From Streptomyces tirandamycinicus (lineage in GTDB: Bacteria > Actinomycetota > Actinomycetes > Streptomycetales > Streptomycetaceae): DNA of 64,000 nt. The DNA is taken from the NCBI RefSeq assembly GCF_003097515.1, contig NZ_CP029188.1:186001-250000 (forward strand). Reading direction: 5' to 3'. Numbering within the stretch: position 1 is the stretch's first letter; each line of letters starts with the position of its first letter. The notes beneath the pieces were generated by a model. That model did not search any database. It saw only the letters and a list, made by a program, of their open reading frames with translations, and was not told where the DNA came from. Positions 21,654 through 42,296 of this stretch are shown one piece after another. Position numbers and translations under genes: made by a program.

Positions 21654-21702
21654 ACTTGATCTTCAACCAGTGCGGCGGGGCCGTGGAGTTCAAAGATCAA
21701 GT
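21654..21702. terminator. AT-rich inverted repeat at the end of the marR gene
   Basis: ACTTGATCTT (21654-21663) and AAGATCAAGT (21693-21702) are perfect 10-bp arms separated by 29 bases; the right arm overlaps the TAA of the marR gene on the minus strand. It could be the operon terminator or the footprint of a small mobile element. Confidence 0.5.
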
Positions 21703-22208
21703 TAGCGGTCGGCCCAGCCCAAGGGGTACGTCGCGCTGTCCGCAGCCGGCGCGTTCGGCTCGCCCCCGGCCTCGTTGAAGGCGGTGAGCGCGCCGATCAG
21801 GGCGGCGCGCTGTTCGCCCGCCATCCTCTCCACGATCGTCGCGATCTCCCGACGGCGCCGGTCGGTGACGTCCCCGACGAGGGCGCGGCCTTCGGGCGTG
21901 AGTCGCAGCACCGTCTCCCGGCGGTTCTCCGGGTTCGTCTGCCGGTCCGCCAGACCGGCCGTGATCAGGCGGTCGATCATGCGCATCGCCGTGGAAGGGT
22001 TCACACCGAGGCGCTCGGCGAGTACGACGAGTTTGGCCGGTCCGTGCATGGAGAGCACCACCAGGAGCCGGAACTGCGGCAGCGTCACCCGGTCCTCGAC
22101 AGCCGCCAGGGAACGGGCGGAGACGGCGACCAGCAGCCTGGACGCCGTGAGCACCGCGCGCGTCACGGCGTCGACGTCGTCGACGTGCTGTTGCCCTTGT
22201 TCGGTCAT
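21702..22208 (-). CDS. MarR family transcriptional regulator
   Basis: 168 residues; winged HTH with LPQFRLLVVLSMHGP, the recognition helix region LAERLGVNPSTAMRMIDRL, and wing GLADRQTNPENRRETVLRLTPEGRALV. Dimerisation helices lie at both ends. The start codon overlaps the stop of the upstream PP2C phosphatase gene (ATGA, 22205-22208), so both are made together. The effector is likely a small phenolic or oxidant by family habit. No target is visible apart from its own operon. Confidence 0.9.
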   Translation of the reverse strand: MTEQGQQHVDDVDAVTRAVLTASRLLVAVSARSLAAVEDRVTLPQFRLLVVLSMHGPAKLVVLAERLGVNPSTAMRMIDRLITAGLADRQTNPENRRETVLRLTPEGRALVGDVTDRRRREIATIVERMAGEQRAALIGALTAFNEAGGEPNAPAADSATYPLGWADR

Positions 22209-23338
22209 AGCCCTTTTCTACCCTCTGCGGTCGGCCTGCCGGCCGCGCCCGGTGCCCGGGGGGCCGTGCCGCCGATCACATCCGCCGCGTGATAGCGGAG
22301 CAGCAGCATGGCCGCGTCGTCGTGGAGCGGCCCTTCGGCGTGCCGGACCAGGTCGCCGCGCAGCGCCAGCAGGGCGGACTCGGGATCGGGGTCCTTGAGC
22401 AGATCGCCGCGCTCGCCCAGGGGGTAGAAGCGGTCCGCCGGGTCGCGGGCCTCGGAGACGCCGTCCGTGTACAGGAGGATCTGGTCGCCGGGCGCGAAGT
22501 CCGCCCGGTACGGCTCGGGGCCCTTCGCCCCGTGGAGGCCGAGCCCGAGCGGCAGCGCGGCCAGGGGTGGTTCGGCGAAGCCGACCCGGCCGTCGGGCCG
22601 CAGGACCATGGGTGCGGGGTGACCGTAGTTGAGCAGCGTCACCATCCCGTCGTTCCCGACCTCCGCCAGAACGGCCGTCACGAACTTCTCGCCCTGCAGT
22701 TCCCGGTCGGCCACCCGCTCGAGTCTGGCGCCGACACCGGCCAGGTCCGGCTCGTCGTGCGCGGCCTCGCGGAACGCACCGAGCACGAGGGCGGCGGTCT
22801 CGACCGCGTCCAGCCCCTTGCCCTGGACGTCCCCCACGATCACCCGCACGCCGGTGGGCGAGGCCACCACCTCGTACAGATCGCCGCCGATGCGCGCCTC
22901 GGCCAGCGCGGAGGTGTAGGAGACCGCCACCCGCAGCGGCCCGGCGCTGCGCGGAACCGGCCTCAGCAGCACCCGCTGGGCGACCTCGGCGATCGACCTG
23001 ACACTGGCCAGTTCGGCTTCCCGCCGCTGCCTCATCACCGCGGCGACCAGCCCGGCCACGGTCACTCCCGCCACGGACGCCAGCGCAGTCCAGCCCCTCC
23101 GGCTGTCGAACAGACCGTCGTACAGGCCGAGCGTGAGGCACAGCAGCATCGCGAGTCCGCCGATGAGGGCCGTGCGGCGCCAGCCTCCGACGAGCCCGGC
23201 GAAGGCGGGCCCCAGGGAGACGAGCGGGAGGAACCCCACGGCCGGGCCCGCCGTCACGTCGACGACGGTGACGACGGCCATGACGGCGTACGGGAGGACG
23301 GACAGCACGGCGGAGCGCCGCGGAGTCGCTTCGGGCAT
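22205..23338 (-). CDS. Membrane PP2C-type (SpoIIE domain) serine phosphatase
   Basis: 377 residues from ATG 23338. The N-terminal half has four membrane helices (about 12-110). The SpoIIE/PP2C catalytic domain (about 140-355) shows the acidic metal residues in ARIGGDLYEVV, VIVGDVQGKGLDAV, LLYTDGVSEARD and HDDAAMLLLRY. Such enzymes dephosphorylate anti-anti-sigma factors (STAS proteins) and so tune alternative sigma factors. No STAS or kinase gene is adjacent. It is the first gene of a two-gene operon with marR. Confidence 0.9.
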   Translation of the reverse strand: MPEATPRRSAVLSVLPYAVMAVVTVVDVTAGPAVGFLPLVSLGPAFAGLVGGWRRTALIGGLAMLLCLTLGLYDGLFDSRRGWTALASVAGVTVAGLVAAVMRQRREAELASVRSIAEVAQRVLLRPVPRSAGPLRVAVSYTSALAEARIGGDLYEVVASPTGVRVIVGDVQGKGLDAVETAALVLGAFREAAHDEPDLAGVGARLERVADRELQGEKFVTAVLAEVGNDGMVTLLNYGHPAPMVLRPDGRVGFAEPPLAALPLGLGLHGAKGPEPYRADFAPGDQILLYTDGVSEARDPADRFYPLGERGDLLKDPDPESALLALRGDLVRHAEGPLHDDAAMLLLRYHAADVIGGTAPRAPGAAGRPTAEGRKGL

Positions 23339-23518
23339 GACGGATTCCACGGTGTGCGAGGGGTGGTGCGGGCGGCTGCGAGCGAGGGATCCGGCACCAC
23401 CACGGACCGCCGCTTGATTTAGCCTATGCAAAACTTACCTTCCCGAAGCATTTCGGGGAGGTCTCGTTACCGAACCGACAGCCGGCCACCAGGGCGCGGC
23501 CGCCTGAACCGGAGGTGC

Positions 23519-24055
23519 ATGGTGAACCAGTCCACCCCCCGACCGCGGCGCCCCGCACCACCGAGCGGCTGGCGGCGGTCGGCCGCACGCCTGCCGGTCA
23601 CACTGTTCCGGATCGGCCTCGGGCCGCTCTTCGGCGGGCGGCTGCTCCTCCTCATCCACACCGGACGGCTGAGCGGTGCCGCGCGCACGGTGGTCCTCGA
23701 GGTGGTCGAGCACACGGCGTCCCCGTGCTCGTGGACCGTGGCGTCCGGATACGGGCCCGCGGCCCAGTGGTATCGCAACCTCGAGCACACCCCGCAGGCC
23801 ACCGTGCAGTCGGGCAGGCGCTTCCACGCCGTGAACGCCCGGTTCCTCCCCGTGGAGGAAGGGGGCGCGATCATGGCGCGGTACGCCGAGAGGCGCCCCC
23901 GTACGGCCGCACGCCTGTGTGCCTACCTGGGGCTGGGCACCGACGGGACGCCGGAGGGGTACCACGAGGCGGGGGGACACATCCCCTTCGTCCGGCTGGA
24001 GTGCGACCCCGCGTGCCATCGCCCCCGCGGCGGCGGCCAGCCGGCCGGCCGGTGA
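23519..24055 (+). CDS. Deazaflavin (F420)-dependent nitroreductase family protein
   Basis: 178 residues from ATG 23519; GGAGG lies only three bases upstream, so the GTG at 23522 may be the true start. Split-barrel features are GGRLLLLIHTGRLSGAARTVVLEVV, SGYGPAAQWYRNLEHTP and ATVQSGRRFHAV, as in the DUF385/Ddn group of F420H2-binding enzymes. These reduce quinones or nitro compounds. Reaction specificity is not predictable. Confidence 0.85.
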   Translation: MVNQSTPRPRRPAPPSGWRRSAARLPVTLFRIGLGPLFGGRLLLLIHTGRLSGAARTVVLEVVEHTASPCSWTVASGYGPAAQWYRNLEHTPQATVQSGRRFHAVNARFLPVEEGGAIMARYAERRPRTAARLCAYLGLGTDGTPEGYHEAGGHIPFVRLECDPACHRPRGGGQPAGR

Positions 24056-24071
24056 CGCGGGGTGCGTACGG

Positions 24072-24091
24072 CCCGTGCCGTACGGCACGGG
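24072..24091. terminator. 20-bp perfect palindrome after the nitroreductase gene
   Basis: CCCGTGCCGTACGGCACGGG, 17 bp after the stop, followed by two more GCACGGGAAAG-like units up to 24120. It probably acts as terminator; the repeated units are another short tandem duplication of a terminator arm. Confidence 0.6.
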
Positions 24092-24248
24092 AAAGCGGCA
24101 CGGGAAAGCACAACGGGAAAGATCCCTGCCGCCGGTGAACGCGGCCGCCGCCTGATCCGTACTGCTGACTGCGTGCCGTGCCAGCCGCCGTACCACAGCT
24201 CCCGGACGACATGAACGAGCAAGTACTCCATGCCGACCGGGAGGCATC

Positions 24249-25010
24249 ATGCGTTCCAACCGAAGCGCAGCCGCATCCACCGCCCCGAGGACGATCGGGG
24301 TGGTCCTGGCCGTCGTCGCGGTCATCGCCACCGTCCTGATCGCCACAAGGGGAGGCGACGAAGAGGCCTCCGCCTCGCAGACACCCGCCGGGACCGCCGC
24401 GCAGAACGGCTACGGCCAGGGCACCCAGGGTTCCGGGTCCGAGGGCTACGGGCACTCCTCCGGCGTCGGGCACGGCACCGAGGCGGAGGGCGGCGCGGCC
24501 CAGGACCGCCAGGCGGAGCGGTCCGAGCCCCAGCCGGTGACCGAGGTGGACAAGACGTTCCTGGTCGCGGTCCGGCAGGCGGGCCTGTGGGAGATCCCCG
24601 CCGGCCGGCTCGCGCAGACGAACGCGTCCAGCGAGGCGGTCAAGCGCGCCGGGCTGCACCTCATGGACGGGCACAGCAAGCTCGACCAGCTGGTCCGCGA
24701 GGACGCCGAGATCCTCGGCGTCCCGATCCCCGACCAGGCCACGCCGGAGCAGCAGGGCTGGGTCAAGCAGATGGAGAACGCCCGGGGAGCCGAGTTCGAC
24801 CGCATCTTCGCGAATCTGCTGCGCGCGTCCCACGGGAAGATCTTCGCCACCATCGGCGAGGTCAGGGCCGCCACGCAGAACGACCTGATCCGCCGCCACG
24901 CCCGGCAGGCCAACCAGACGGTGCTGGACCACCTGGAGGTCCTGGAGGACACCGGCCTGGTCGACGGCGAGACCTTCGCCGACGTGGAGAAGGCCGTCAC
25001 CCCGAAGTAG
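24249..25010 (+). CDS. DUF4142 domain protein, membrane-anchored
   Basis: 253 residues; GGGAGG before ATG. A single N-terminal membrane segment (about 15-33, TIGVVLAVVAVIATVLIAT) is followed by a Gly/Ser/Glu linker and a ferritin-like helical DUF4142 domain (about 100-253: DKTFLVAVRQAGLWEIPAGRLAQ, LHLMDGHSKLDQLVREDAEILG, LLRASHGKIFATIGEVRAAT). The domain lies outside the cytoplasm. The His residues could bind metal as in other ferritin-like folds, but the ligands are not certain. Function unknown. Confidence 0.85.
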   Translation: MRSNRSAAASTAPRTIGVVLAVVAVIATVLIATRGGDEEASASQTPAGTAAQNGYGQGTQGSGSEGYGHSSGVGHGTEAEGGAAQDRQAERSEPQPVTEVDKTFLVAVRQAGLWEIPAGRLAQTNASSEAVKRAGLHLMDGHSKLDQLVREDAEILGVPIPDQATPEQQGWVKQMENARGAEFDRIFANLLRASHGKIFATIGEVRAATQNDLIRRHARQANQTVLDHLEVLEDTGLVDGETFADVEKAVTPK

Positions 25011-25058
25011 GCACGGCCAGGCGGCGACCCCCGGGTGCAGCGGTGCTGGATCATTCCT

Positions 25059-25071
25059 TTGCACTGTGCAA
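25059..25071. promoter_or_regulatory. TTGCACTGTGCAA palindrome, copy 1
   Basis: 13-bp perfect palindrome after the DUF4142 gene; 15 bases around it are identical to copy 2, 260 bp away. The spacing and identity point to a regulator binding site. Confidence 0.5.
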
Positions 25072-25318
25072 TCCTGCGGTGGGCGGCGCCGCCCCGCCGG
25101 AGGAGCGGACCCGCTCGCCCGTGAGGCGCGCGAGAGGGTCCAGCCGTGACGCTCGGCGGCGCGGCGCCGCCCACCGGCTCCGGACACGCACTCCGGCCCC
25201 CTCCGGGCCGGCCGCAAGGCGGGCGGTCCGGAGCCGGGCCGCACCGCCGCCCGTACGGCGCCGCCCGCCGTCCGCGCGGCGCCGGGATGCGGCACCGTCC
25301 CGCCCCTGGTGTTCGATT

Positions 25319-25331
25319 TTGCACTGTGCAA
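25319..25331. promoter_or_regulatory. TTGCACTGTGCAA palindrome, copy 2
   Basis: Second exact copy, in an AT-rich patch (GATTTTGCACTGTGCAATACTTTCG) that looks like a promoter. An AGGAGG follows 14 bases later but without a good start codon. The region 25011-25544 has no supported gene otherwise. Confidence 0.5.
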
Positions 25332-25544
25332 TACTTTCGACCGAGGAGGGCCCGTCAACAGGCAGGCCCATGCCTGGGAGCTGAGGCACTGGCACGGTGA
25401 CGCAGTTTTCACGCGCCCGTCTGCTGCCGGCAGCCCTCCTCACCAAGCACGGGACCGGCCCCCCGCCGCCGACCGCACGGGCCGGGCGCGGACAGGCCGC
25501 CGTCACGCGCTGTGCGGTGTGCCGTCCTTCGGCAGAATGACGGT

Positions 25545-26711
25545 ATGTCGATGGGCGAAGAGCCCCGAGGCTCACGCTCCGCGGGGCGTCCCGACACCGC
25601 CCCGCCGGGGCCGGGCCGGGACGGGGACGCGCTGGAGCGGCATCACCGGCTCCTCGCCGAGACGGCCCTGAGCGGGGGGCGGCTGTCCGACGCGTCCCTG
25701 CAGGGCCTGCGGGAGCTGGGAGCCGCCGCGGCCGACCGGGGCACCACCCTCCATGCCGTGCTCGACGAGTACTTCACCGGTGCCCGCCGGGTCTGGGCCG
25801 GTCTGCAGCGTCCCCGGGACGACGACCGCCCCGCCGTGCTCCGTGACATGGCACAGGCGTTCCTGCGGGCGAGCGGCGAGTCGGCCGTGGCACTGAGCGA
25901 GGGCTACGAAACCGCCCACCGGGCGGCGATCCGGCGGGAGGAGGCGAGCCGGCGCGAGTTCGTCGACGACCTTCTCGAGGGGCGCACACCGCTCGGCCGG
26001 CTGGCGGAGCGGGCCGAGCGCTTCGGCCTTCGGCTCGTGGGGCCCCACACCGTCAGCGTCGGGCGTGCGCGGGAGCGCTTCGAAGCGGGCGACGCCACGA
26101 CCCGGTACGTGGAGGACGCGCTCACCACCCGGTTCGGGGTGGAGCAGGTACTGATCACCACCAAGGACGGTCTGCTCGTCTGCGTCGCCTCGGGGACGGG
26201 GACCGAGGTTCCCGAGTTCTTCGCCGGGCAGGCCGCGAGTGCGGTTACCGGGCCCTGCCGGGTCGCCGTGAGCAGGCCCAGAACGGGTCCCAGCGGGATC
26301 GTCCGCTCGTACCAGGAGGCCGGCAGGGCACTCGACGTGGCCCATCGGCTGGGCTTCACCGCCTCCGTGGTGCGGGCCTCGGACGTCCTGGTCTTCCAGG
26401 TGCTGGAGCGGGATCGCGCAGCGATCACGGATCTGGTGACCACGGTTCTCGGTGGCCTCGAACAGGCCCGCGGAGGCCCGCACACACTGCTGGAGACGCT
26501 CGCCGCGTACTTCGCCACCGGCTGCAGCAACACCACCACGGCCCGGCGCCTGGGGCTGGGGGTCCGTACCGTCGGCTACCGGATCGCCCGCATACACCAG
26601 CTCACCGGCTACGACCCGACCGATCCCGACCAGCGGTACGTCCTGCAGACGGCGGTACTGGGAGCCCGCCTGCTGGGCTGGCCGGCGACCCCGCTGCAGT
26701 CCGCCGACTGA
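25545..26711 (+). CDS. PucR/CdaR-type transcriptional regulator
   Basis: 388 residues from ATG 25545 (ATG 25551 is also possible). The N-terminal helical region resembles RsbRD-like domains (RLLAETALSGGRLSDASLQGL, ALSEGYETAHRAAIRREEASRREFVDDLLEG). A GGDEF-like degenerate domain (about 150-300) follows, and the C-terminal PucR HTH contains TGCSNTTTARRLGLGVRTVGYRIARI. Such proteins activate or repress adjacent metabolic genes. The target is not evident; the two TTGCACTGTGCAA sites upstream are candidates for its own site. Its convergent neighbour is hypE, with a shared terminator. Confidence 0.85.
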   Translation: MSMGEEPRGSRSAGRPDTAPPGPGRDGDALERHHRLLAETALSGGRLSDASLQGLRELGAAAADRGTTLHAVLDEYFTGARRVWAGLQRPRDDDRPAVLRDMAQAFLRASGESAVALSEGYETAHRAAIRREEASRREFVDDLLEGRTPLGRLAERAERFGLRLVGPHTVSVGRARERFEAGDATTRYVEDALTTRFGVEQVLITTKDGLLVCVASGTGTEVPEFFAGQAASAVTGPCRVAVSRPRTGPSGIVRSYQEAGRALDVAHRLGFTASVVRASDVLVFQVLERDRAAITDLVTTVLGGLEQARGGPHTLLETLAAYFATGCSNTTTARRLGLGVRTVGYRIARIHQLTGYDPTDPDQRYVLQTAVLGARLLGWPATPLQSAD

Positions 26712-32520: not shown

Positions 32521-32913
32521 TCAGCCCTCCTGGGAGATCGGTTCGCGAACCCCGGGGTCCGCGGGGTCTTCGTGCCACTCCACGGCGGCGATCCGCAGCT
32601 CGCGGCCGCAGACCAGCTCCGCGGTGGCCCGGTCGCACACCGGGCAGACCAGCCGCGGCGGCATGCCCACCGCCCACTCGCCGCCGCACGGGGCGCAGCG
32701 GGCGCGCGCCGGGACGCTCTCGACGGCGAGTTCGGCGCCTTCCACGACGGTTCCGGCGCAGGCCAGCCCGAAGGAGAAGGTGAGCGCGTCGGGGACCACT
32801 CCGGCCAGCTCGCCGATCAGCAGGCGTACGGTGCGCACCGCGGTGGCGCCGTGCGCCCGTGCCGCCTCCTCGACCTGGTCGACGACGGCGAGCGCGATGG
32901 ACATCTCGTGCAT
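32521..32913 (-). CDS. hypA: Hydrogenase nickel chaperone HypA
   Basis: 130 residues, start MHEMSIALAVVDQVE. The N-terminal Met-His-Glu binds nickel, and the zinc site is formed by CAPC and CPVC (about 72-95). First gene of the hypABFCDE unit, preceded by the 425-bp spacer with the 18-bp repeat array, where its promoter should be. Confidence 0.96.
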   Translation of the reverse strand: MHEMSIALAVVDQVEEAARAHGATAVRTVRLLIGELAGVVPDALTFSFGLACAGTVVEGAELAVESVPARARCAPCGGEWAVGMPPRLVCPVCDRATAELVCGRELRIAAVEWHEDPADPGVREPISQEG

Positions 32914-33338
32914 CGGTCTCCGTCCTGGGCGGCGGCGGTCCGCCGCGCCCGGGGCGGGCGCGACCGTGCCCATTACAGGGGCCGCCGCCGGGCCGGTCCG
33001 ACCGGCGCGCCGACGGTGCCCGGTCGCGTCCGCCGTTCGGTGCAGCGGCCGCGCGGCGGGGCGGCCGGCGGGTCCCGCGCGTCACCACGGTCGGTGCGGC
33101 ACCTCACCCCGGCCCGTACCGCTCGTCCGCACGCTCACGCGGCGCGGGCCGGATACCGCGGGTCCCACGGGTCATGGCACACGGGCACCCGGAGCGGGCC
33201 ACGCGGGCCCCTCGCTCACGGCACGCGGATCGGGCACCGCGGTGCGGCCGGGTCCCGCGGTGCGGTCGGGCACCGCGGTCCGGTCGGGCACCGCGGTGTG
33301 GCCGGGTCCCGCGGTGCGGTCGGGTCCCGCGGTGCGGG
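32914..33338. other. Spacer between the two hydrogenase transcripts
   Basis: No supported gene in 425 bp. Half is the 18-bp repeat array described separately; the rest is GC-rich. It should hold the hypA promoter on the minus strand, but I see no clear -35/-10 pair. Confidence 0.6.
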
Positions 33339-33339
33339 T
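33232..33339. repeat. 18-bp tandem repeat, 6 copies
   Basis: Six contiguous units of GGG(C/T)(A/C)CCGCGGTGCGG(C/T)C lie at 33232, 33250, 33268, 33286, 33304 and 33322; copies differ at 1-4 positions. Each contains CCGCGG, and GCACCGCGGTGC in the first unit is a 12-bp palindrome. The array abuts the stop codon of the 35-residue peptide gene. Confidence 0.95.
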
Positions 33340-33446
33340 CACATCCGGCGGATGCGCAGATAGCGTCTGAGGTCCGGGAGGAACCCCCTGACGAGCGCGA
33401 CGACCGCGGTGGCGGCTGCGGCTCCGCCGATGACCTTCTTGATCAT
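33339..33446 (-). CDS. 35-residue basic peptide at the end of the hydrogenase structural operon
   Basis: MIKKVIGGAAAATAVVALVRGFLPDLRRYLRIRRM. Strong AGGAGGAG ribosome-binding site eight bases upstream, and its ATG overlaps the stop of the maturation protease gene (ATGA). The amphipathic Ala/Val helix with a strongly basic C-terminal half (pLRRYLRIRRM) suits membrane-surface attachment. It fits a short Streptomyces family known from hydrogenase loci (I recall DUF6893). It could anchor the soluble hydrogenase to the membrane or act as an assembly peptide; this is inference. Confidence 0.8.
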   Translation of the reverse strand: MIKKVIGGAAAATAVVALVRGFLPDLRRYLRIRRM

Positions 33447-34027
33447 GGGTGTGCTCCTCCTGTGTGGCCGGTTGGTGCCGGGGCTGACTGGTGCACCAGG
33501 TCGGTGATCATGCGTGCGGCTGCCGGTACGGCGGCGGCGACCCGCGGGCTGAGTCCGATCCCCTCCTCGACACAGGCGGGTTCGCAGCCGACGACCAGGA
33601 CGCGGCGCGGCGGCTCCGTGCCGGTGCCGGCGCAGAGCGTGTGCAGCAGGGCGAGTACGGCGTCGGGGGACATCCCGTGGCCGTCGAGGGCGCCGAGGCC
33701 GCCGGCGTCCACGGGCCTTCCGGTACCGCCGCCGGAATCCACGGGCGTACCGGTACCGCCGCCGGGGTCCGGCTCGATGAGGTAGAGCGTGCCGGGTTCC
33801 CCGCCGCGGGCCGTCGCGTCGACCAGGACGAGGGTGTCGTACCCGTCCAGCAGCCGGTAGGCGAGGTGGACGCCCCGGATGCCGATGTCCGCGACCTCGA
33901 CCCCGTCCGGCAGTGGCCGCCCGGCCAGTGCGCGTACGGTCTCGACGCCGAAGCCGTCGTCGCCGAGGAAGATGTTGCCGACGCCGGCGACGAGGGTGCG
34001 GGGGCGGTCCTGCGCGGGGGCGTTCAC
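33443..34027 (-). CDS. Hydrogenase maturation protease (HyaD/HoxW family)
   Basis: 194 residues, GTG start overlapping the preceding stop. Family motifs: VAGVGNIFLGDDGFGVETV (about 12-30; the acidic residue binds nickel), LVLVDATA with the second acidic ligand, and the His of DGHGMSPDAVLALL. A Gly/Asp-rich insertion (about 88-110, two GGGTG units) is longer than usual. It cuts the C-terminal 23 residues after His569 of the large subunit once Ni is inserted. Confidence 0.92.
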   Translation of the reverse strand: MNAPAQDRPRTLVAGVGNIFLGDDGFGVETVRALAGRPLPDGVEVADIGIRGVHLAYRLLDGYDTLVLVDATARGGEPGTLYLIEPDPGGGTGTPVDSGGGTGRPVDAGGLGALDGHGMSPDAVLALLHTLCAGTGTEPPRRVLVVGCEPACVEEGIGLSPRVAAAVPAAARMITDLVHQSAPAPTGHTGGAHP

Positions 34028-35544
34028 ACGGTCTCCAGGGGTTCGACCTCGTCGGGCTGGAAGTAGAGGAACCGGCCCTGTTCGCGGCGGATGTCGGCGC
34101 CGGGGTCGCCCTCGACGGTGACCGCGAGGTGCACTCCGCCGTCCACGTCGTGCAGCACGGCCTCGACCAGGGCGGCGCGGCCGTGCAGGAACAGGTCCTG
34201 CGCGTCGCTGCGCCGCAGCCCCGGCCGCAGCACGACCCGGCTTCCCGCGCCGACGGCGACGCCGTCCACCAGCACCCGGTCGTGCTCCGGGTCGACGCCG
34301 GTGTCGCCGCCCGGGTCCCACCAGGGGGTGTCGGGGCGGGCGGTGCCGTGATCGAACGGGGCGAACGAACCAGAGGAACCGAAGGAACCAGAGGAACCAG
34401 AGGAACCGGAGGAGCCGAAGGAACCGGAGGAACCGAAGGAACCGGAGGAGCCCTGGGGGGCGAGAGAGTCCTCCTGCGGCGCGGGGCCGGTGACCTCCCG
34501 CAGGCTGCGCACGGCGCCGTGCAGCCGCTCCAGGACCTCCGCCGGCATGGTGTCGGCGAGTTCGATGACCGCGGCCGCACGCTCGTCGGTGCCCCTGGCC
34601 TCGCGCTTCTCCTCGTCCGTGAGGGCCGCGGTGCGCAGGGCGAGGATCTCGTCGATCTCGGTGGCGTCGTACAGGGCGCCCGGGCTCTCCGGTGCGATGG
34701 CCGGGTGGTCCTCGAGGATGATCGGCGAGGACAGCACGAGGTCGGTGCGGCCGGGTTCGCCCGCGAGTACGGGCCAGGTGTGGAGGTTGCGGCAGGCCGC
34801 GACGGCCCCCTTGGCCCACTGGGGCGGGTCGGTCATGGACAGGAACGCGCCGCGGTCGAGGCAGAGCAGCAGATGGCTGGCGACCAGTGAGTGCGGCAGG
34901 GCCGCGTCGCGGTCCGCGCCGGGTTCCGGCGTCCAGTCACCGGCGTTCTCCACGGTGGCCGTGAGCCGCATCGTCCGGTAGGGGCCGTCGAGTTCGGCCG
35001 CGGAGAGCCGTACCACCCCGCTGATCTCCGCGCGGCGGCGCAGCAGGCGGCCGACGGTGCGTCCCTCGCCGTCCAGGACCGGTTCGGTCTCCTGGCGGGC
35101 GGGCCGGGTGAAGGGGATGGCGACGCCGTCGCCCGCCAAACCGGCGACGGGCACGGTCAGTTCGACGCGCTCCTCCACGCCCTCGTCCCAGGGGACCAGG
35201 ACCCGGTCGTCCAGGTGGAGTTCGGGGACCGTTGCGAACCCTCCGTCCGCCGCCGCCCGCTGGACGGTGCGCCGCTGCGCGTGCAGGAAGCGGACCTCCA
35301 CCGCGAGGTCGGCGCCGGGCCGGGGTTCCATCAGGCACTCGGTGCGCTGGATCGAGTGCTCCCCGCAGCGTGCGCTCCACGCGGGCGGCACGAGCACCCC
35401 GAACTGCCAGCGCAGCCGGTTCTTGGCCGCCGAGGCCCGGTACGGGTACAGCACATAGCCCTCGAACAGGACCGCGTCGGCGACCTGGCGCGCGGTGGCG
35501 AGCCGGGCCTCGGTCCCGGGGGCGAAGGCGGCGGTGGCGGTCAC
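34024..35544 (-). CDS. Hydrogenase-cluster protein of unknown function (506 residues)
   Basis: GTG start (GTGA overlap with the upstream gene). The N-terminal 330 residues form a soluble alpha/beta domain (FEGYVLYPYRASAAKNRLRWQF, FATVPELHLDDRVLVPWDEG). A helical part with LADTMPAEVLERLHGAVRSL is followed by a Ser/Gly/Phe linker (about 375-410, GSSGSFGSSGSF units), then an 85-residue beta-rich C-terminal domain (DRVLVDGVAVGAGSRVVLRPGLRRSDAQDLFL, FLYFQPDEVEPLETV). I do not recognise a catalytic motif. The C-terminal domain resembles those attached to hydrogenase-locus proteins in related actinobacteria. It is coupled at both ends in the operon. Confidence 0.8.
   Translation of the reverse strand: MTATAAFAPGTEARLATARQVADAVLFEGYVLYPYRASAAKNRLRWQFGVLVPPAWSARCGEHSIQRTECLMEPRPGADLAVEVRFLHAQRRTVQRAAADGGFATVPELHLDDRVLVPWDEGVEERVELTVPVAGLAGDGVAIPFTRPARQETEPVLDGEGRTVGRLLRRRAEISGVVRLSAAELDGPYRTMRLTATVENAGDWTPEPGADRDAALPHSLVASHLLLCLDRGAFLSMTDPPQWAKGAVAACRNLHTWPVLAGEPGRTDLVLSSPIILEDHPAIAPESPGALYDATEIDEILALRTAALTDEEKREARGTDERAAAVIELADTMPAEVLERLHGAVRSLREVTGPAPQEDSLAPQGSSGSFGSSGSFGSSGSSGSSGSFGSSGSFAPFDHGTARPDTPWWDPGGDTGVDPEHDRVLVDGVAVGAGSRVVLRPGLRRSDAQDLFLHGRAALVEAVLHDVDGGVHLAVTVEGDPGADIRREQGRFLYFQPDEVEPLETV
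34351..34452 (-). repeat. 9-bp tandem repeat coding for a Ser/Gly/Phe linker
   Basis: About 11 units of GAACC(A/G)(A/G)AG-type sequence (plus strand, units such as GGAACCAGA and GGAACCGAA) encode the SSG-SFG linker of the 506-residue protein. The region is markedly less GC-rich than its surroundings. Units are multiples of three, so length changes keep the frame. Confidence 0.85.
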
Positions 35545-36182
35545 GGGGCCGTCCTCCCGCCGGACGCGTCGAGCAGGGCGCGGACCGTGGACTCCCAGGA
35601 GGGCAGGGCCCGTTGCGAGCGGAAGGCGAGGAGGGCGTCCATGGTCTCGCGGGGCAGCCTGATCCACCCGCAGCCCGGGAAGTGCTGGTCGACCATCTCC
35701 TGCCAGACCTTCACGGGCATCCGGAAGGTGGCCTCCCGGTCCCAGGGAACCGGTTCGACGTGGAATCCGCCGGCGCCGGTGAAGGCGGTGCCGGAGAAGA
35801 GCATCAGCAGCGGCACCTCGCCCTCGGACAGGGCGTGGGCGTAGCGGGTCGCGGCCACGTCCATGTCGTAGGTGCAGGGGACGGGCAGTTCGGTCTCGGT
35901 CTCGCCGGTGAAGCCGGGCACCATGTGGGAGACCTGCGCGAACTGCACCGGGTGCATGGAGCTGCCCCAGCGGGAGCGGGTGCCGAAGAGGTCCTTCAGC
36001 CCCTCGGCCTCGGAGTCGGCGTAGCCGCGCCGGGCCGGTTCGATGCGCAACTGGCAGCGCAGGGCGAGGGCGTGGACACGGGTCCCGGGTGTGGCGGTGA
36101 TGCGCAGCCGGAAGACGAGGGTCGGGCCGGCGGCGTAGGGGTCGGCCCGCACGTCGGTGCACTGGAAGGTGAATTCGGTCAT
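35541..36182 (-). CDS. Hydrogenase-cluster protein (DUF6084-like), 213 residues
   Basis: ATG start at 36182 overlapping the upstream stop. Beta-rich protein: FTFQCTDVRADPYAAGPTLVFRLRIT, LRCQLRIEPARRGYADSEAEGLKDLFG and PCTYDMDVAATRYAHAL look like an immunoglobulin-like or DUF-type sandwich; ends with a helix (RETMDALLAFRSQRALPSWESTVRALL). I recall it as DUF6084, found with actinobacterial group 1h hydrogenases. No metal motif is clear. A structural or assembly partner for HhyL is likely from context. Confidence 0.75.
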   Translation of the reverse strand: MTEFTFQCTDVRADPYAAGPTLVFRLRITATPGTRVHALALRCQLRIEPARRGYADSEAEGLKDLFGTRSRWGSSMHPVQFAQVSHMVPGFTGETETELPVPCTYDMDVAATRYAHALSEGEVPLLMLFSGTAFTGAGGFHVEPVPWDREATFRMPVKVWQEMVDQHFPGCGWIRLPRETMDALLAFRSQRALPSWESTVRALLDASGGRTAP

Positions 36183-36844
36183 GCCCGGCTCCCCCGGAGC
36201 GGTGTGGCCCGCTGTCGTACGCGGTCGAAGAAGGCGTCGAGTTCGGCGCGGGCCCGGGGGCCGCCGTCGAAGCCCTGCCAGGTGAGCCGCATCCGGCCCA
36301 CGAGTTCGTAGGTGGTGTCCACCGGCACCAGGTGGCACTCGGTGCGGCCGCCGGAGCGGCGCAGCAGCAGCGCCTCCACGTCGGGTTCGAGCATCCCGGC
36401 CAGCCCGGTGGCGGACAGCACCGTCTCCCAGGCGGACGGGTCCGGCTCGCTCTCGGTGGCGCCGGCCGGGCTCGGGTAGAGCGCCACGGGCCGTCCGAGG
36501 GCGGAGTTGTGGAAGAAGAAGGCGACGCCGACGGGGATCCGCAGCAGTTCCCAGGTGGTGTCGTCGATGCGGTGCGCCGGATCGGTGAGGTGGCGCGAGG
36601 GCACGGCCCGGAATCGGCCCCGGGACGCGCCGGGCCGGTCGAGGAGCTGGGTGCACGGACCGCAGGCGCAGGCCAGTGCCCGGTTCTCGGTGTCCACGAG
36701 GTGCCGGTGCGGTGCGTCGGGGAGCGCCATGCCGCAGAGTTCGCAGCGCTCCTCGCGGGGCGGCCGGGGTGCCGTGAACCGGCGCAGTCCGCGTCGGTCC
36801 GGGGCGGTCCGCGGCCGCCCCGGACCCGTCGGGAGCGCGCTCAC
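36179..36844 (-). CDS. Hydrogenase-cluster protein (DUF5947-like), 221 residues
   Basis: GTG start overlapping the stop of the NifU-like gene. It carries a zinc-finger-like set of four cysteines (CELCGMAL, and ACACGPC) in the first 70 residues, followed by an alpha/beta domain with WELLRIPVGVAFFFHNSALG, ALYPSPAGATESE, and FDGGPRARAELDAFF. I recall it as DUF5947, specific to hydrogenase loci. The cysteines could hold zinc or an Fe-S cluster, making it a candidate for electron transfer or metal delivery. Confidence 0.75.
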   Translation of the reverse strand: MSALPTGPGRPRTAPDRRGLRRFTAPRPPREERCELCGMALPDAPHRHLVDTENRALACACGPCTQLLDRPGASRGRFRAVPSRHLTDPAHRIDDTTWELLRIPVGVAFFFHNSALGRPVALYPSPAGATESEPDPSAWETVLSATGLAGMLEPDVEALLLRRSGGRTECHLVPVDTTYELVGRMRLTWQGFDGGPRARAELDAFFDRVRQRATPLRGSRA

Positions 36845-37428
36845 CGCGCCGTGGCCGGTGCCCGGCCCGCGGCGGAACCGCCGCCGGGCGGCCCGGCGCC
36901 GATCTGCAGGAGGGCCGGTTCGCTGGTGACCGGCTCCAGTTCGACGGCCGTCACCTCGGGTGCGAAGCACGCGAGTGCCTCGACGGCAGCCTGCCGGGCG
37001 ACCTCCTGGGTGCTGGGGCAGCCGCATCCGGTCGAGCCGGTGAGGCGGAGCCGCAGCACTCCGGTGGCCTCGTCGTAGCCGGCCGATTCGAGGGCGTGCC
37101 GGACTCCGCGCAGCGCGCGGGCGATCCGGGTGGGCACGTCCTCGGGGTGCAGATCGTGCAGGACCAGCAGGCTGCTGACGAGTTCGTCGCCGAGCAGCCC
37201 GGTGAGCGGCGCGGGGGTGTGCCCCTGGGCGGACGCGTCGTCGGCGGGCCGGCCGAGCAGTTCCACGGTCCTGGCCAGCGCGGCGCCGTAGAAGTCCATG
37301 AGGACCCGGACCAGTTCCTCGGCGGCCGTGCACGCCTGCCGGTCGCCGCCGGCGGCCAGCCGGTCGAGGATCTCCTCGACCCGCCGGCCCGCCCGCTCCG
37401 CGCTGACCGTGCCGGTGACCGGGCTCAT
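36841..37428 (-). CDS. NifU-like (NifU C-terminal type) Fe-S carrier protein
   Basis: 195 residues; start ATG overlapping hhyL's stop. An N-terminal helical region with EELVRVLMDFYGAALARTVELLG is followed by the NifU-C/NFU fold, GYDEATGVLRLRLTGSTGCGCPS, whose two Cys (GCGC) bind a labile [4Fe-4S], then VARQAAVEALACFAPEVTAVELE. It may supply clusters to the small subunit or carry electrons from it. Its place right after hhyL is conserved in related hydrogenase loci as far as I recall. Confidence 0.85.
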   Translation of the reverse strand: MSPVTGTVSAERAGRRVEEILDRLAAGGDRQACTAAEELVRVLMDFYGAALARTVELLGRPADDASAQGHTPAPLTGLLGDELVSSLLVLHDLHPEDVPTRIARALRGVRHALESAGYDEATGVLRLRLTGSTGCGCPSTQEVARQAAVEALACFAPEVTAVELEPVTSEPALLQIGAGPPGGGSAAGRAPATAR

Positions 37429-39203
37429 CCGGCGAGGCCGCTCAGGCCGGTGGGCACGTGCATCGACTTCACGGTCCTGCCGTCGCCGACGTACATGTGG
37501 ACGCCGCAGGGCAGGCACGGGTCGAAGCTGCGGACGGCCCGCATGATGTCGATGCCCTTGAAGTTCTCCGGGGAGTTCTCCTCGAAGATGGGCGTGTTCT
37601 GCACCGCGTCCTCGTAGGGGCCGGGGGTGCCGTAGGTGTCGCGGGTGCTCGCGTTCCACGGGGTCGGCGGGTACGGGTGGTAGTTGGCGATCTTGCCGTC
37701 CCTGATGACCATGTGGTGGGAGAGGACGCCCCGGACGGCCTCGGTGAATCCGGCGCCGATGGACTCGTCGGGCACGTCGAACTTCTCCCAGGTCTGGCTG
37801 CGTCCGGCGCGTACCTCCTCGAGGCCCTTCTCCGCGAAGTGCAGCGCGACGGCGGCCGCGTACGCCTGGAAGTAGGTGCGGGCGCGGTTGCGTTCCAGCG
37901 CGTTGCTCCACTGCGGGATCTTCCACTCGAAGGTGGCCTCCGGCTTGGTGAGCGAACGGGGCAGGTTGATGACGACGCTGTGCCCGGTGGCCTTGACGTA
38001 GCCGATGTCGACGAGGCCGGAGAGCGCGGTGGACCAGAGCCGGGCGATGGGGCCGCCTCCGGTGTCGAGCGGCAGGTAGTCCTTGCCGTCGAACCAGCGC
38101 GGGGACATCACCCAGCTGTACTTGTCGCCGAAGTCGCGCTTCTGGGGGGCGGGGATGGTGTGCTGGTTCCACGGGTGGCGCGGGTCGACCGGGTTGCCGA
38201 GCGGGTCGTGGGTGACGAACTGCTCCTGGCCCTCCCAGTCCTCGTAGTACGAGCTGCCGAGCAGGATCCGGATGCCGAGGTTGATCTGGGTGAGGTCGTT
38301 GGTGACCAGCTTGCCGTCCACGACGACACCCGGGGTGACGAACATCCGCCGGCCCCAGTCGGTCATGTTGGCGTAGGTGAAGTCGCAGTACTCGGGGTCG
38401 TTCAGGGCTCCCCAGCAGCCGAGCAGCACCCGGCGGCGGCCGACCTCCTCGTAGCCGGGCAGGGCCTCGTAGAAGAAGTCGAACAGGTCGTCGTGGAGCG
38501 GGACGACGCGCTTCATGAACTCCACGTACCGCATCAGGCGGGTCATGTAGTCCGTGAAGAGCTGGACGGAGGCCACCGTGCCGACGCCGCCCGGGTAGAG
38601 CGTGGAGGGGTGCACATGGCGACCCTCCATCAGGCAGAACATCTCCCGGGTGTAGCGGCTGACCTGGAGGGCCTCACGGTAGAACTCGCCCTCCAGCGGG
38701 TTCAGCGAGCGCATGATGTCGGCGATGGTGCGGTAGCCGTGCTCGGCGGCGTGCGGCGCCTCGGTGCGCTCGGCGAGTTCGAGGACGCCGGGGTTGGTCT
38801 CACGGACCATCTTCTCGCAGTAGTCGACCCCGACCAGGTTCTCCTGGAAGATGTTGTGGTCGAACATGTACTCGGCGGACTCACCGAGGTTGATGATCCA
38901 CTCTCCGAGGTGCGGCGGCTTCACCCCGTAGGCCATGTTCTGGGTGTAGACGGAGCACGTGGCGTGGTTGTCACCGCAGATGCCGCAGATGCGGCTGGTG
39001 ATGAAGTGCGCGTCGCGCGGGTCCTTGCCCCGCATGAAGACGCTGTAGCCGCGGAAGACCGACGAGGTGCTGTAGCACTCGGCGACCCGCTTCTGCTTGA
39101 AGTCGATCTTGGTGTGGATGCCGAGACTGCCCACGATCCGGGTGATCGGATCCCAGGACATCTCCACCAGGCCGTCGCCGGCCGCTTGTGTCTTCGGTGC
39201 CAT
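37425..39203 (-). CDS. hhyL: [NiFe]-hydrogenase large subunit, group 1h (high-affinity, oxygen-tolerant)
   Basis: 592 residues from ATG 39203 (MAPKTQ), which has GAAGGG upstream; a GTG 24 bases earlier lacks one. N-terminal Ni ligands are in RICGICGDNH (Cys73, Cys76). The C-terminal pair is in DPCLPCGVH (Cys563, Cys566), after which the protease removes 23 residues. The L2 form and the lack of a membrane anchor or Tat signal on its partner suit group 1h, the enzymes that oxidise trace atmospheric H2. Electrons probably go to the respiratory chain via an unknown carrier. It is coupled to the NifU-like gene. Confidence 0.96.
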   Translation of the reverse strand: MAPKTQAAGDGLVEMSWDPITRIVGSLGIHTKIDFKQKRVAECYSTSSVFRGYSVFMRGKDPRDAHFITSRICGICGDNHATCSVYTQNMAYGVKPPHLGEWIINLGESAEYMFDHNIFQENLVGVDYCEKMVRETNPGVLELAERTEAPHAAEHGYRTIADIMRSLNPLEGEFYREALQVSRYTREMFCLMEGRHVHPSTLYPGGVGTVASVQLFTDYMTRLMRYVEFMKRVVPLHDDLFDFFYEALPGYEEVGRRRVLLGCWGALNDPEYCDFTYANMTDWGRRMFVTPGVVVDGKLVTNDLTQINLGIRILLGSSYYEDWEGQEQFVTHDPLGNPVDPRHPWNQHTIPAPQKRDFGDKYSWVMSPRWFDGKDYLPLDTGGGPIARLWSTALSGLVDIGYVKATGHSVVINLPRSLTKPEATFEWKIPQWSNALERNRARTYFQAYAAAVALHFAEKGLEEVRAGRSQTWEKFDVPDESIGAGFTEAVRGVLSHHMVIRDGKIANYHPYPPTPWNASTRDTYGTPGPYEDAVQNTPIFEENSPENFKGIDIMRAVRSFDPCLPCGVHMYVGDGRTVKSMHVPTGLSGLAG

Positions 39204-39275
39204 CGTGTGTGCGGTGCCCTTCTTCACGTCTTCACGTCGTCGAGCAGGAGGGGATGCCGTGGGCTTGGAGCGGGG

Positions 39276-40370
39276 TCACATCTGCCACGGGGGCCGGTAG
39301 CCGGTGGTGATCTTGTCGCCCGTGTGGCGCCACTTGGGCTCCTTGTCCACGGTCCTGGCGGTGATGTTGCGGAGCCTGCGGATCACGGCGCCGTAGGCGC
39401 CGCTGGCCGTGCTGGAGAGCTTTCCGCCGGGCGGCTCGTCCATGAACGGCATGAACTTGTCGGGGAAGCCGGGCATGGTGCAGGCGATGCAGATGCCTCC
39501 CACGTTCGGGCAGCCGCCGATCCCGTTCATCCAGCCGCGCTTGGGCACGTTGCACTTGACGACGGGCCCCCAGCAGCCGATCTTCACCAGGCACTCGGGC
39601 GAGTCGTACGTCTCGGCGAACTGGCCCTGCTCGTAGTAGCCGGCCCGGTCGCAGCCCTCGTGGACGGTCTGGCCGAACAGCCAGGTGGGGCGGAGCTTGT
39701 CGTCGAGCGGGATCATCGGTGCGGAGCCGGCCGCCTGGTAGAGCAGGTACGTGAGGGTCTCCGCGAAGTTGTCCGGCTGGATCGGGCAGCCCGGGACGCA
39801 CACGATCGGGATGCCCGCCTTGGACTTCCAGTCCCAGCCGAGGTAGTCGGGCACGCCCATGGCACCGGTGGGGTTGCCCGCCATGGCGTGGATGCCGCCG
39901 TACGTGGCGCAGGTGCCGATCGCCACCACGGCCAGGGCGTTGGGCGCCAGCCGGTCGATCCACTCGCTGGTCGTGATGGGCTGGCCGGTCTCGGGGTCGT
40001 CGCCGAAGCCGCACCAGTACCCCTCCTGCTTGATCGACTCATTGGGCACGGAGCCCTCGACGACCAGCACATAGGGGTCGATCTCCCCGCGCTCCCCCTT
40101 GAAGAACCACTCGATGAAGGTGTCGGCGCCGCCCACCGGGCCGCACTCGAAGTCGATCAGCGGCCAGTGGACCTGGATCTTCGGCAGTCCCGGCAGGGCG
40201 CCGAGGACGATCTCCTCGATGCTCGGCTGCATGGCGGCGGTCAGCGCGACCGAGTCCCCGTCGCAGCTCAGTCCGGCGTTGATCCAGAGGATATGGATCG
40301 GCTTGTCTTCGGCGGTGGCCGCGCCGGACGAGGCCGCGGCGTCGACCGTGGTCGGCGTTCCTGCATCCAT
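39276..40370 (-). CDS. hhyS: [NiFe]-hydrogenase small subunit, group 1h
   Basis: 364 residues, AGGAG before ATG. No Tat signal or C-terminal membrane anchor, so it is cytoplasmic. The proximal cluster motif that in standard enzymes reads C-x2-C is here GLSCDGDS (Cys36, Asp39), so Asp replaces the second Cys. This agrees with the three-Cys, one-Asp proximal [4Fe-4S] cluster known from the actinobacterial-type hydrogenase of Ralstonia. Further cluster ligands are in IGTCATYGG, VCVPGCPIQP, HEGCDRAGYYE, ECLVKIGCWGP, and CNVPKRGW with GGCPNVGGICIACTMPGFP. Confidence 0.96.
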   Translation of the reverse strand: MDAGTPTTVDAAASSGAATAEDKPIHILWINAGLSCDGDSVALTAAMQPSIEEIVLGALPGLPKIQVHWPLIDFECGPVGGADTFIEWFFKGERGEIDPYVLVVEGSVPNESIKQEGYWCGFGDDPETGQPITTSEWIDRLAPNALAVVAIGTCATYGGIHAMAGNPTGAMGVPDYLGWDWKSKAGIPIVCVPGCPIQPDNFAETLTYLLYQAAGSAPMIPLDDKLRPTWLFGQTVHEGCDRAGYYEQGQFAETYDSPECLVKIGCWGPVVKCNVPKRGWMNGIGGCPNVGGICIACTMPGFPDKFMPFMDEPPGGKLSSTASGAYGAVIRRLRNITARTVDKEPKWRHTGDKITTGYRPPWQM

Positions 40371-40427: not shown

Positions 40428-42134
40428 CTAACAGGCGGCCGTTGCGGCTGCCACCGAGGCTTCCTCCGGGCGGGTGTCCCGCGGGGACTCCTTCCGTACG
40501 AAGGCCCGCCGCAGCCGGTGGTAGGGCGCGGCCGGGTCCGAGAACGTCCGCCGCATCCGGGCCAGCTCGTCCGCCCGGTACGCGGCCAGGGGCCGTACGG
40601 CCTCGTCGCGCTCCCGCGCGGCCTTCTTGGCCGCGATCCGGGACTGGGTCGAGGGATTGGGAGCAAGGCGTGCCGCCATCCGGGTGGCCTCGCCCGCGAA
40701 CTCCTCCGGACCGCATTCGACGACCCGATCGACCAGGCCGTGGCGCAGCGCCGCGGTCGCGGTCACCGGCAGCGCCTGGGAGGTGAGGCGTTCGGCCATG
40801 GGGCCGCCCACCCGGCGGGGCAGGGAGTACGTCCAGTACTCCGAGCCGTACAGGCCCATGAGCCGGTAGTGGGGGTTGAGGACCGCGCCCGCGCGGCACC
40901 AGACCTCGTCGGCGGCCAGCGCGAGCATCACCCCGCCCGCGGCCGCGTTGCCGCCGACCGCGGCCACGACGAGCCGGTCCGTGGTGGTCAGCACGGCCTC
41001 CACGAGGTCGTCCATCGCGTTGATGTTGGCCCAGGACTCGGCGGCGGGGTCGGCGGCGGCCTCGATGACGTTGAGGTGGATGCCGTTGGAGAAGAAGTCC
41101 CGGGCCGCCCCGAGCACCAGCACGGAGGTGGGCCGGGAGCAGGCCACCCGGTAGGCGTCGAGCAGCCGGCGGCAGTGCTCGGTGCTCATCGCGCCGCCGG
41201 GGAAGGAGAACGACAGCACACCGACGGGCCCCTCCTCCCGGTAGCGGATGTCGCTCCAGGTCCGGCGGTGGTCGCCGAGGGCGAGGGGCGCGGGGAGATC
41301 GGGCAGCGGCGGCAGCCGCTCCCCCAGCGCCAGGGTGGCGGGCAGCTTGACGGGCCTTCCCCCGGCGTCGCGGCGCGGACGCAGCTCGGGGATCCACACG
41401 GCGCCGTCCACGGTCGCCCGGCACAGGGCGCCCGCCCTGGTGGCGAGCAGCTCGCCGGGGCGGCCGCGCAGCCGGTCCTCCGGGTGGCCGCCGTGGAGGT
41501 ACCACTCGCCGTCCAGCAGTTCGTCGAGCACTCCCGGCTGGGAGTCCGCGGCGCGCAGCTTGCGCAGCACGGTCTCGGTGGAGTCGTCCGCCCAGGAGAT
41601 CCGCCGGAACTCCTGGCGGACGTACGGCCTGACGCACGCCCGGCCGCCCCCGGCGCTCTGCGGCCGGGGCACATGGGTGCCGGAGGCGAAGCGGTCGACG
41701 GCGAGCAGGACGGCGGTGACGGCGGCGTCGGAGACCTCGCCCCGGTAGAGGTCGCTCTTGGCGAGCGGGGGGAGGGCGACGTTCGCCGCGGCCCAGACGT
41801 CTCCGGCGTCCATCTCCGCGTCGGCCTGCAGGACGGTGACGCCCCAGACCCCGGCGTCCTCCTGGACCGCGTAGTCCAGCGACGACGGGCCCCGGTCGCC
41901 CACCGGGCCGGGGTGGACGACGAGGCAGGTGTGCCGGGTCCAGACGTCGGCCGGGATGACCGCCTTCAGCAGGGGGGCGAGCACGAGGCCGGGCTCGTGC
42001 CGGCGGACCGCCTCGCGCACGGCGTCCCCGTCCGGGGTGAGCTCGACGGAGACGGTGTGGCCCCGGTCCCTCAGCTCCGCGTGGACGCGCTGGGTGAGGC
42101 TGTTGTAGGCACTGGCGACGAGGAGGATGTGCAT
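40428..42134 (-). CDS. hypX: Hydrogenase maturation factor HypX (HoxX), CO-ligand synthesis
   Basis: 568 residues, start MHILLVAS with GGAAGG upstream. The N-terminal half is a formyl-THF-using formyltransferase-like module (HPGPVGDRGPSSLDYAV at 74-90, GVTVLQADAEMDAGDVWA) and the C-terminal half a crotonase fold (about 290-500, GVLSFSFPGGAMS, GNAAAGGVMLALAADEVW). HypX takes the formyl group to CoA and releases CO, giving the iron's CO ligand under air. This explains how the hydrogenase matures in an aerobe. It is probably the first gene of the structural transcript, 57 bp before hhyS. Confidence 0.93.
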   Translation of the reverse strand: MHILLVASAYNSLTQRVHAELRDRGHTVSVELTPDGDAVREAVRRHEPGLVLAPLLKAVIPADVWTRHTCLVVHPGPVGDRGPSSLDYAVQEDAGVWGVTVLQADAEMDAGDVWAAANVALPPLAKSDLYRGEVSDAAVTAVLLAVDRFASGTHVPRPQSAGGGRACVRPYVRQEFRRISWADDSTETVLRKLRAADSQPGVLDELLDGEWYLHGGHPEDRLRGRPGELLATRAGALCRATVDGAVWIPELRPRRDAGGRPVKLPATLALGERLPPLPDLPAPLALGDHRRTWSDIRYREEGPVGVLSFSFPGGAMSTEHCRRLLDAYRVACSRPTSVLVLGAARDFFSNGIHLNVIEAAADPAAESWANINAMDDLVEAVLTTTDRLVVAAVGGNAAAGGVMLALAADEVWCRAGAVLNPHYRLMGLYGSEYWTYSLPRRVGGPMAERLTSQALPVTATAALRHGLVDRVVECGPEEFAGEATRMAARLAPNPSTQSRIAAKKAARERDEAVRPLAAYRADELARMRRTFSDPAAPYHRLRRAFVRKESPRDTRPEEASVAAATAAC

Positions 42135-42296
42135 GACGGCCTTCCACCGGATCCGGCGGCTGGGCCGCACCGCACGGCGGCGCCGCCTGCCCGGAGGGCC
42201 AGGCGGGACTTCGCGGAAACGCCCCAGGGCCGGCGGGGAGTCCGGCCGACTGCGATGCTCCGGCACGGCGGGGACCCGGAGCCGTTACGGAGCCGC

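Follow-up and report, generated by a model that had tools for sequence, protein, structure and literature searches.

An accessory gene cassette that travels with group 1h hydrogenases and includes a candidate membrane micropeptide

The group 1h hydrogenase locus of Streptomyces tirandamycinicus carries, between hhyL and the hyp genes, a cassette encoding a NifU-like protein, DUF5947, DUF6084, a protein of 506 residues (p506), a protein of the hydrogenase maturation protease family and a DUF6893 micropeptide, and this cassette is near-exclusive to group 1h in the genomes sampled. With a probability of about 0.5, we propose that it serves group 1h enzymes as a set of accessory genes, in which the soluble proteins would assemble and mature HhySL and DUF6893 would tie the enzyme to the membrane. 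The locus lies in a window of 64,000 nucleotides (NZ_CP029188.1, positions 186,001 to 250,000), by which the whole stretch analysed is meant and to whose positions all feature coordinates refer. An earlier reading of this DNA, called the original prediction below, had placed a block of coupled genes between hhyL and the hyp genes; the block was confirmed at 33339-37428, on the minus strand throughout, and stop-start overlaps are indeed present at all six joints, each of exactly 4 bases instead of the 4-5 bases first given. The assignment to group 1h is likewise borne out, as the HhyL of the window contains both the L1 motif TSRICGICGDNH and the L2 motif SFDPCLPCGVH (motif text from PMC5364354) and shares 78.5% identity with HofG of C. 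necator, the protein in the crystal structure 5aa5.

Conservation of the cassette at group 1h loci

The neighbourhood of hhyL was surveyed in 105 loci from six phyla (69 Actinomycetota, 17 Acidobacteriota, 9 Pseudomonadota, 5 Chloroflexota, 3 Planctomycetota and 2 Verrucomicrobiota), the phylum of each locus being taken from the title of its record or from the genome sample to which it belongs. The loci were drawn from 20 of the 25 genomes with a group 1h-like hhyL (at least 65% identity, fragments included, a cut of our own) in a sample of 198 Actinomycetota genomes, from 5 of 12 plasmid records, and from the best 80 of at least 581 matches in a contig scan, whose ranking by likeness to an actinobacterial query means that very divergent HhyL may be under-sampled. 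Cassette counts refer to the 85 loci whose sequence continues for 6.5 kb or more beyond hhyL; the 20 shorter ones were left out. On the hhyL strand, p506 was found in 85/85 of these loci, DUF5947 in 84/85, the NifU-like gene in 83/85, and DUF6084 and the protease in 81/85 each. All five soluble genes were present together in 78/85, so that the block, rather than being missing from most group 1h loci, is carried by the great majority of them. The gene order of the window was found again in other phyla, which speaks against a chance arrangement.

Some loci depart from this layout. In the two verrucomicrobial loci, most of the block stands before hhySL, and in a second, Streptomycetaceae-type arrangement (L045, L047 and L054), p506 precedes hhyS, DUF6084 is absent and the protease is elsewhere or was not seen. 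Only p506 and the protease were found in L081 (genome G206), where hhyS reads as three pieces, and in L158 of the Chloroflexota genome G357. The AT-rich genome G404 (L157; one contig of 2.48 Mb) carries hhyS-hhyL with the protease, p506 and DUF6084 on the opposite strand, and has neither a NifU-like gene at the locus nor a DUF5947 gene anywhere in the genome. The arrangement, in which hypB and the protease are about 4.6 kb apart, agrees with the map published for Methylacidiphilum fumariolicum SolV (PMC5364354). Since G404, G357 and G206 all still keep p506, this protein appears to be the least dispensable partner among the loci seen.

Two further observations concern the integrity of the block. 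A Streptomyces locus, L032 (G182), holds hhySL with the NifU-like, DUF5947 and DUF6084 genes and a shortened p506, without protease and peptide, and looks like a decaying cassette. A small extra open reading frame (ORF) lies between DUF5947 and DUF6084 in L044 (11743-12102, plus strand) and L046 (8426-8635, minus strand); the two share the end STAERSTGINPASRNPIDP..SPNLSPA, and the L046 copy matched no Pfam family.

Co-occurrence with group 1h in whole genomes

Of the 198 Actinomycetota genomes, 25 have a group 1h-like hhyL, 23 each have p506 and DUF5947, and 22 have DUF6084. The carriers of these three families all lie within the 25 hhyL genomes with the sole exception of G189, a fragmented genome in which DUF5947, DUF6084, p506, the protease and the peptide share one short contig and no hhyL was detected. 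The hhyL genomes without p506 are G042, at a contig end, and G107 and G184, which have fragments. None of the block families occurs in seven Actinomycetota genomes with only 38-46% relatives of hhyL. A genome-wide search for hhyL, DUF6084 and DUF6893 in 151 Chloroflexota genomes gave hhyL of at least 72% identity in 18, DUF6084 in 17 and DUF6893 in 15, both nested in those 18; the peptide profile adds two of the remaining three hhyL genomes (G248 and G266). Fisher tests yielded 2e-23 and 1e-21 for DUF6084 and 1e-14 and 5e-18 for DUF6893, values that are uncorrected for kinship. In Verrucomicrobiota, hhyL was found in 2/145 genomes.

DUF6893 itself was detected in 19/198 Actinomycetota genomes, of which 16 have a group 1h-like hhyL, the others being G189, G150 and G195. 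In the complete genome G150 (L136, 6922-12057), hypA-hypB is followed by a piece of hhyS adjoining a piece of p506, an intact peptide and protease, and then hypF, which looks like one internal deletion of hydrogenase genes. In G195 (L137, 2-9040), the protease and DUF6893 stand with hypF-hypD-hypE-hypA-hypB, and no hhyL was found in the genome at an expectation value (E) of 1e-50.

The DUF6893 micropeptide

The last gene of the block (33339..33446, minus strand) encodes 35 residues with one hydrophobic segment and the C-terminal sequence LPDLRRYLRIRRM, and matches PF21833 with E 1.6e-12 and 47.7 bits, against a cut-off of 24.6. The original prediction had listed this peptide and overlooked that it recurs across phyla and is a membrane candidate. 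An iterated profile search of 40,621 small ORFs in the 105 loci, with a threshold of 18 bits, recovered 77 relatives in 73 loci, while the best score in a control with reversed ORFs was 12.6 bits. The protease gene is an immediate neighbour on the same strand in 73 of the 77 cases; one further relative adjoins p506 at a locus where no protease was seen, and three lie elsewhere. All relatives end in Met, preceded by a basic motif containing RY (Met 77/77, Arg 77/77, Tyr 76/77), and Asp is conserved in 72/77. The invariant Met is followed by TGA in 45 relatives, TAG in 19 and TAA in 13, and the use of three different stop codons indicates that the C-terminus is fixed at the protein level.

Within the block, the peptide was found at the strict score in 67/85 loci, with weaker matches in place in L052 and L115, a diverged form, judged by eye, in L045, L047 and L054, and a copy elsewhere in the locus in L084 and L133. 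The AT-rich G404 has it before hhyS, with GGAG ahead of its ATG. The gene tables, themselves incomplete, of four plasmid loci (C. necator, M. parvus, M. intracellulare and S. fungicidicus) do not list it.

The best 15-residue hydropathy of the 77 relatives has a median of 2.4. A 19-residue hydropathy of 1.9 or more was reached in no HhyS, HhyL, NifU-like, DUF5947, DUF6084 or p506 row, and in one protease (1.94). By hydropathy, the peptide is thus the sole clear membrane candidate of the cluster from hhyS to the protease. A profile search of the PDB with the peptide returned nothing below E 1.8. Tiny single-span proteins encoded beside a respiratory oxidoreductase are familiar as CydX-type small membrane subunits; these differ from DUF6893 in both sequence and enzyme, and DUF6893 is so far a candidate member of a complex. 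An enzyme that lacks an anchor is reported to associate with the membrane in SolV, and likewise in M. smegmatis and Pyrinomonas (PMC7174314), and the peptide is a direct candidate for the link between such an enzyme and the membrane.

The soluble proteins

The NifU-like gene (36841..37428, minus strand, 195 residues) is a truncated relative of HhyE. Like the gene for HhyE, which together with HucE represents the NifU-like proteins of group 1h and 2a loci (PMC6883350), it stands directly after hhyL and encodes a NifU-like domain, and, used as a phmmer query, it finds long HhyE forms with 44-107 bits. It differs in having CGC at residues 135-137 in place of CxxC, and in lacking the C-terminal tail domain with two CxxC; truncated HhyE has been described for a subset of species (PMC6883350). 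The match of the window protein to PF01106 is weak (E 0.046, below the gathering score), while its relatives match the family soundly, with E 7e-12 for the C. necator protein and 5e-25 for that of a planctomycete. Among 102 relatives, the cysteine site reads CxxC in 37, CxC in 33, one Cys in 21 and no Cys in 11. The CxC type, to which the window protein belongs, is confined to Actinomycetota (all 33), and 8/9 Pseudomonadota proteins, including that of C. necator, have no Cys at the site. A tail with two CxxC is present in 27/102, and the four tails tested gave a weak-to-fair match to the Rieske domain (E 7.5e-8 to 0.04). The sequences are related to one another, and the cysteine changes are not independent events. 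As CxxC is missing in 65/102, a role of the NifU-like protein as an iron-sulfur carrier is weakened.

DUF5947 (36179..36844, minus strand, 221 residues; PF19372, E 9e-69, 231 bits against a curated cut-off of 25) has the opposite pattern of conservation. Its motif CxxC-x8-HxH-x10-CxCxxC is invariant in 95/95 sequences, with C34, C37, H46, H48, C59, C61 and C64 in the window protein, and its AF2 model has a predicted local distance difference test (pLDDT) score of 90.8. DUF6084 (35541..36182, minus strand, 213 residues; PF19562, E 4e-97, 324 bits against a curated cut-off of 25) has no ligand motif and one near-invariant Cys (C103, 88/91), and p506 resembles it in having no ligand motif and merely one or two well-kept single Cys. 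Hence, of the Cys-rich members that had been singled out as candidates for an electron-transfer or assembly module, DUF5947 stands, while the cysteines of the NifU-like protein are degenerate.

The gene for p506 (34024..35544, minus strand; tandem repeat at 34362-34449) encodes an N-terminal domain, a low-complexity linker (about residues 344-413) and a predicted C-terminal SH3-like barrel, the latter encoded separately in 4/5 Chloroflexota loci and in some loci of other phyla. The AlphaFold model has a mean pLDDT of 82.5, falling below 50 in the linker at 344-413. Its nearest folds are a DrmA region for the N-terminal domain and SH3-like barrels for the C-terminal domain, although a common fold says nothing of function. 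The window protein gave only below-cut-off, low-complexity family matches (Collagen, HxsA4, SclB). A profile search scored 7,360 relatives with an E of at most 1e-5; among the best 120 of these, those that bear a name are called "hypothetical" or "uncharacterized" protein, and none has a Pfam domain. No PDB entry scored below E 0.5 with the DUF5947, DUF6084 or p506 profiles. The protease is assigned by family (33443..34027, minus strand, 194 residues; TIGR00072, E 4e-33, 114 bits against a cut-off of 47).

Proposed roles and alternative explanations

For the soluble proteins, assembly is the likelier role. It is favoured over an electron relay by the decay of the NifU CxxC, by the chains of 5aa5, in which the crystallised, active C. 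necator enzyme shows HofK and HofG, by the lack of PDB matches, and by the published finding that the dye nitroblue tetrazolium (NBT) does not offset the loss of HhyE (PMC6883350). In M. smegmatis, deletion of HhyE is reported to reduce H2 oxidation and, with hucE deleted as well, to eliminate it (PMC6883350). p506, DUF6084, DUF5947 and the NifU-like protein would act jointly before or during the insertion of clusters or cofactor and the processing of the large subunit by the protease. The peptide would insert through its hydrophobic N-terminal part and dock on the cytosolic enzyme through its basic RYLRIRxM end. A stronger version makes DUF6893, at about 34 residues and with one predicted span, an overlooked membrane subunit of group 1h, whose RY...Met end would dock on HhyS and which would bring the enzyme to the menaquinone pool with no need of an iron-sulfur carrier or cytochrome b; it is offered tentatively, as a possibility with the odds somewhat against it.

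Several observations weigh against an assembly cassette with a membrane peptide. The peptide was not found in 11/85 loci, namely eight of Solirubrobacterales/Gaiellales type, recognised by title in six cases and by likeness in two, the Streptomyces locus with the decayed cassette, a planctomycete locus and an acidobacterial one; among the genomes behind these loci, the acidobacterium (L088) has a copy on another contig and L063 a sub-threshold match. Two further loci, L084 and L133, carry the peptide away from the block, extra copies lie away from hydrogenase genes in L038 and in two contigs of G189 (L138 and L139), and two Actinomycetota genomes without hhyL have it, of which G150 is a deletion relic and G195 is unexplained. 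C. necator has the peptide, and its enzyme is reported to have been purified from the cytoplasm (as that of R. eutropha, PMC7174314), which counts against an anchor unless overproduction outran the peptide. Furthermore, in native gels HhyE is reported to co-localise with both hydrogenase subunits, HhyL and HhyS (PMC6883350), the seven ligands of DUF5947 are kept in 95/95 sequences, as would be expected of an electron carrier too, and the absence of DUF5947 from three hhySL genomes (G404, G357 and G206) shows that it is not needed everywhere.

The invariant ligands of DUF5947, together with its presence in 84/85 loci and the finding that all 23 Actinomycetota carriers have hhyL or the rest of the block, lend some weight to a different explanation, in which DUF5947 is the direct electron acceptor and the block an electron-transfer module. 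PHG067 of C. necator and MSMEG_2717, to which DUF5947 is related by position, were proposed for this role earlier (cited in PMC6883350). C. necator, like the window, has DUF5947 in second place behind the large-subunit gene, and from this gene order we infer that its DUF5947 gene is PHG067. As three hhySL genomes do without it, DUF5947 is more likely an assembly factor than an acceptor of this type, and we regard the electron-transfer explanation as unlikely. Instead of being an anchor, DUF6893 could also regulate the protease or p506 or act as a small chaperone for either, for example by keeping maturation at the membrane. Its adjacency to the protease gene in 73/77 cases, on a side (before or after) that varies by lineage, suits such a role, but the peptide lies directly before hhyS in the AT-rich verrucomicrobial locus, whose protease and p506 genes lie on the opposite strand, and precedes a second hhyS-like gene in the acidobacterium L133, and a regulator or chaperone appears about as doubtful as the DUF5947 acceptor. 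Finally, an ORF of 35 codons in a GC-rich window rich in spurious ORFs might have arisen by chance, or might be generic and persist through its proximity alone. This is highly improbable given the margin between the 77 matches and the reversed control, the three stop codons after the invariant Met, conservation in an AT-rich genome, and the presence of hhyL in 15/15 Pfam-detected carriers among the Chloroflexota genomes.

Neighbouring genes and other loci

Upstream of the block, hhyL (37425..39227, minus strand) encodes the group 1h large subunit and hhyS (39276..40370, minus strand) the small subunit, with PF14720 and PF01058 domains and a match to HofK of PDB 5aa5 at E 1e-164. The upstream neighbour (40428..42266, minus strand) has formyl transferase and enoyl-CoA hydratase domains (PF00378, E 1e-20; PF02911, E 3e-8) and is called hypX-like from this domain make-up. 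On the other side, about six GC-rich tandem copies of an 18-base unit lie at 33225-33337, in the gap between the peptide gene and hypA. The hyp run that follows comprises hypA, hypB, hypF, hypD and hypE in a scan that did not include hypC. Its first gene, hypA (32521..32973, minus strand; PF01155, E 4e-32), matches its family from residue 21, close to 32913, which is also the probable position of its true start. The claim that no classical membrane cytochrome is present agrees with our scan, in which none was matched among those proteins of the window that were scanned.

Copies of DUF6893 away from the hydrogenase genes were located at 4042-4143 of L038 (minus strand), 2352-2561 of L138 (plus strand) and 2134-2250 of L139 (plus strand), the last beside a gene for an AbiEi-like protein. 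In L053, a plasmid of Mycobacterium intracellulare, a plasmid-borne run from nuoA to nuoG (18862-25731) comes after the group 1h locus. Several acidobacterial loci have a second HhyS-like gene upstream of hhySL (L133 of Edaphobacter aggregans, 4993-8650; L084, 6250-8606), and second hhyS matches were also obtained in L069, L076, L078, L079, L080, L082 and L135. In L133, the genes behind it encode a PAS histidine kinase and a LuxR-type response regulator; the kinase and regulator are also present in L084, and the lone small subunit with its kinase and regulator is possibly an H2-sensing cassette.

Relation to described systems and significance

As the original prediction had it, the genes form one unit, and this unit is tied to group 1h. 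The block had also been called undescribed, which is only partly accurate. The NifU-like protein corresponds to HhyE, whose deletion is known, PHG067 had already been put forward as acceptor (PMC6883350), four unknown genes have been reported next to alphaproteobacterial Hyd-1h (PMC12319191), and hhaABC have been noted (PMC6776052). New here are the counts of how widely the cassette is conserved, the observation that the NifU ligands decay, and the peptide.

Other hydrogenase systems offer partial likenesses. HucM, through which the high-affinity hydrogenase Huc is linked to the membrane, is a non-catalytic subunit with a positive charge at its membrane end, and in these respects DUF6893 would resemble it, although HucM, at 188 residues compared with about 34 in DUF6893, also oligomerises its enzyme; Huc is reported to reduce menaquinone itself, with HucM as a scaffold, and HucE is unnamed in the excerpt of that paper (PMC10017518). 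Accessory genes between the structural and hyp genes of oxygen-dependent organisms, with roles in small-subunit maturation, are also represented by hupGHIJK of group 1d (PMC3126725) and a rubredoxin-related factor of R. eutropha (PMC6883350). A Pfam scan of the window block proteins for the hupGHIJK/hoxOQRTV families gave no match at E 0.1, and the likeness would be functional only. The extended hyp operon of Nostoc (asr0689-alr0693) likewise places uncharacterised genes between those for the hydrogenase and the hyp set, among them a NifU-like gene and two small ORFs with putative transmembrane regions. It serves another hydrogenase, and the excerpt reports TPR and NHL proteins and not DUF5947, DUF6084 or p506, so that the two are set apart by description and not by sequence (PMC3126725).

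Group 1h hydrogenases are among the enzymes credited with the soil uptake of atmospheric H2, and their route to the membrane and the exit of their electrons have been left open (PMC7174314, PMC6883350). The block splits into a proposed assembly core, consisting of p506 and the protease and in most cases the NifU-like protein, DUF5947 and DUF6084 as well, and a single very small membrane candidate. The analysis offers a guide to the genes to carry along when the enzyme is made in another host. It also calls for caution regarding HhyE, the favoured acceptor, which is without its CxxC ligands in 65/102 of the loci examined.

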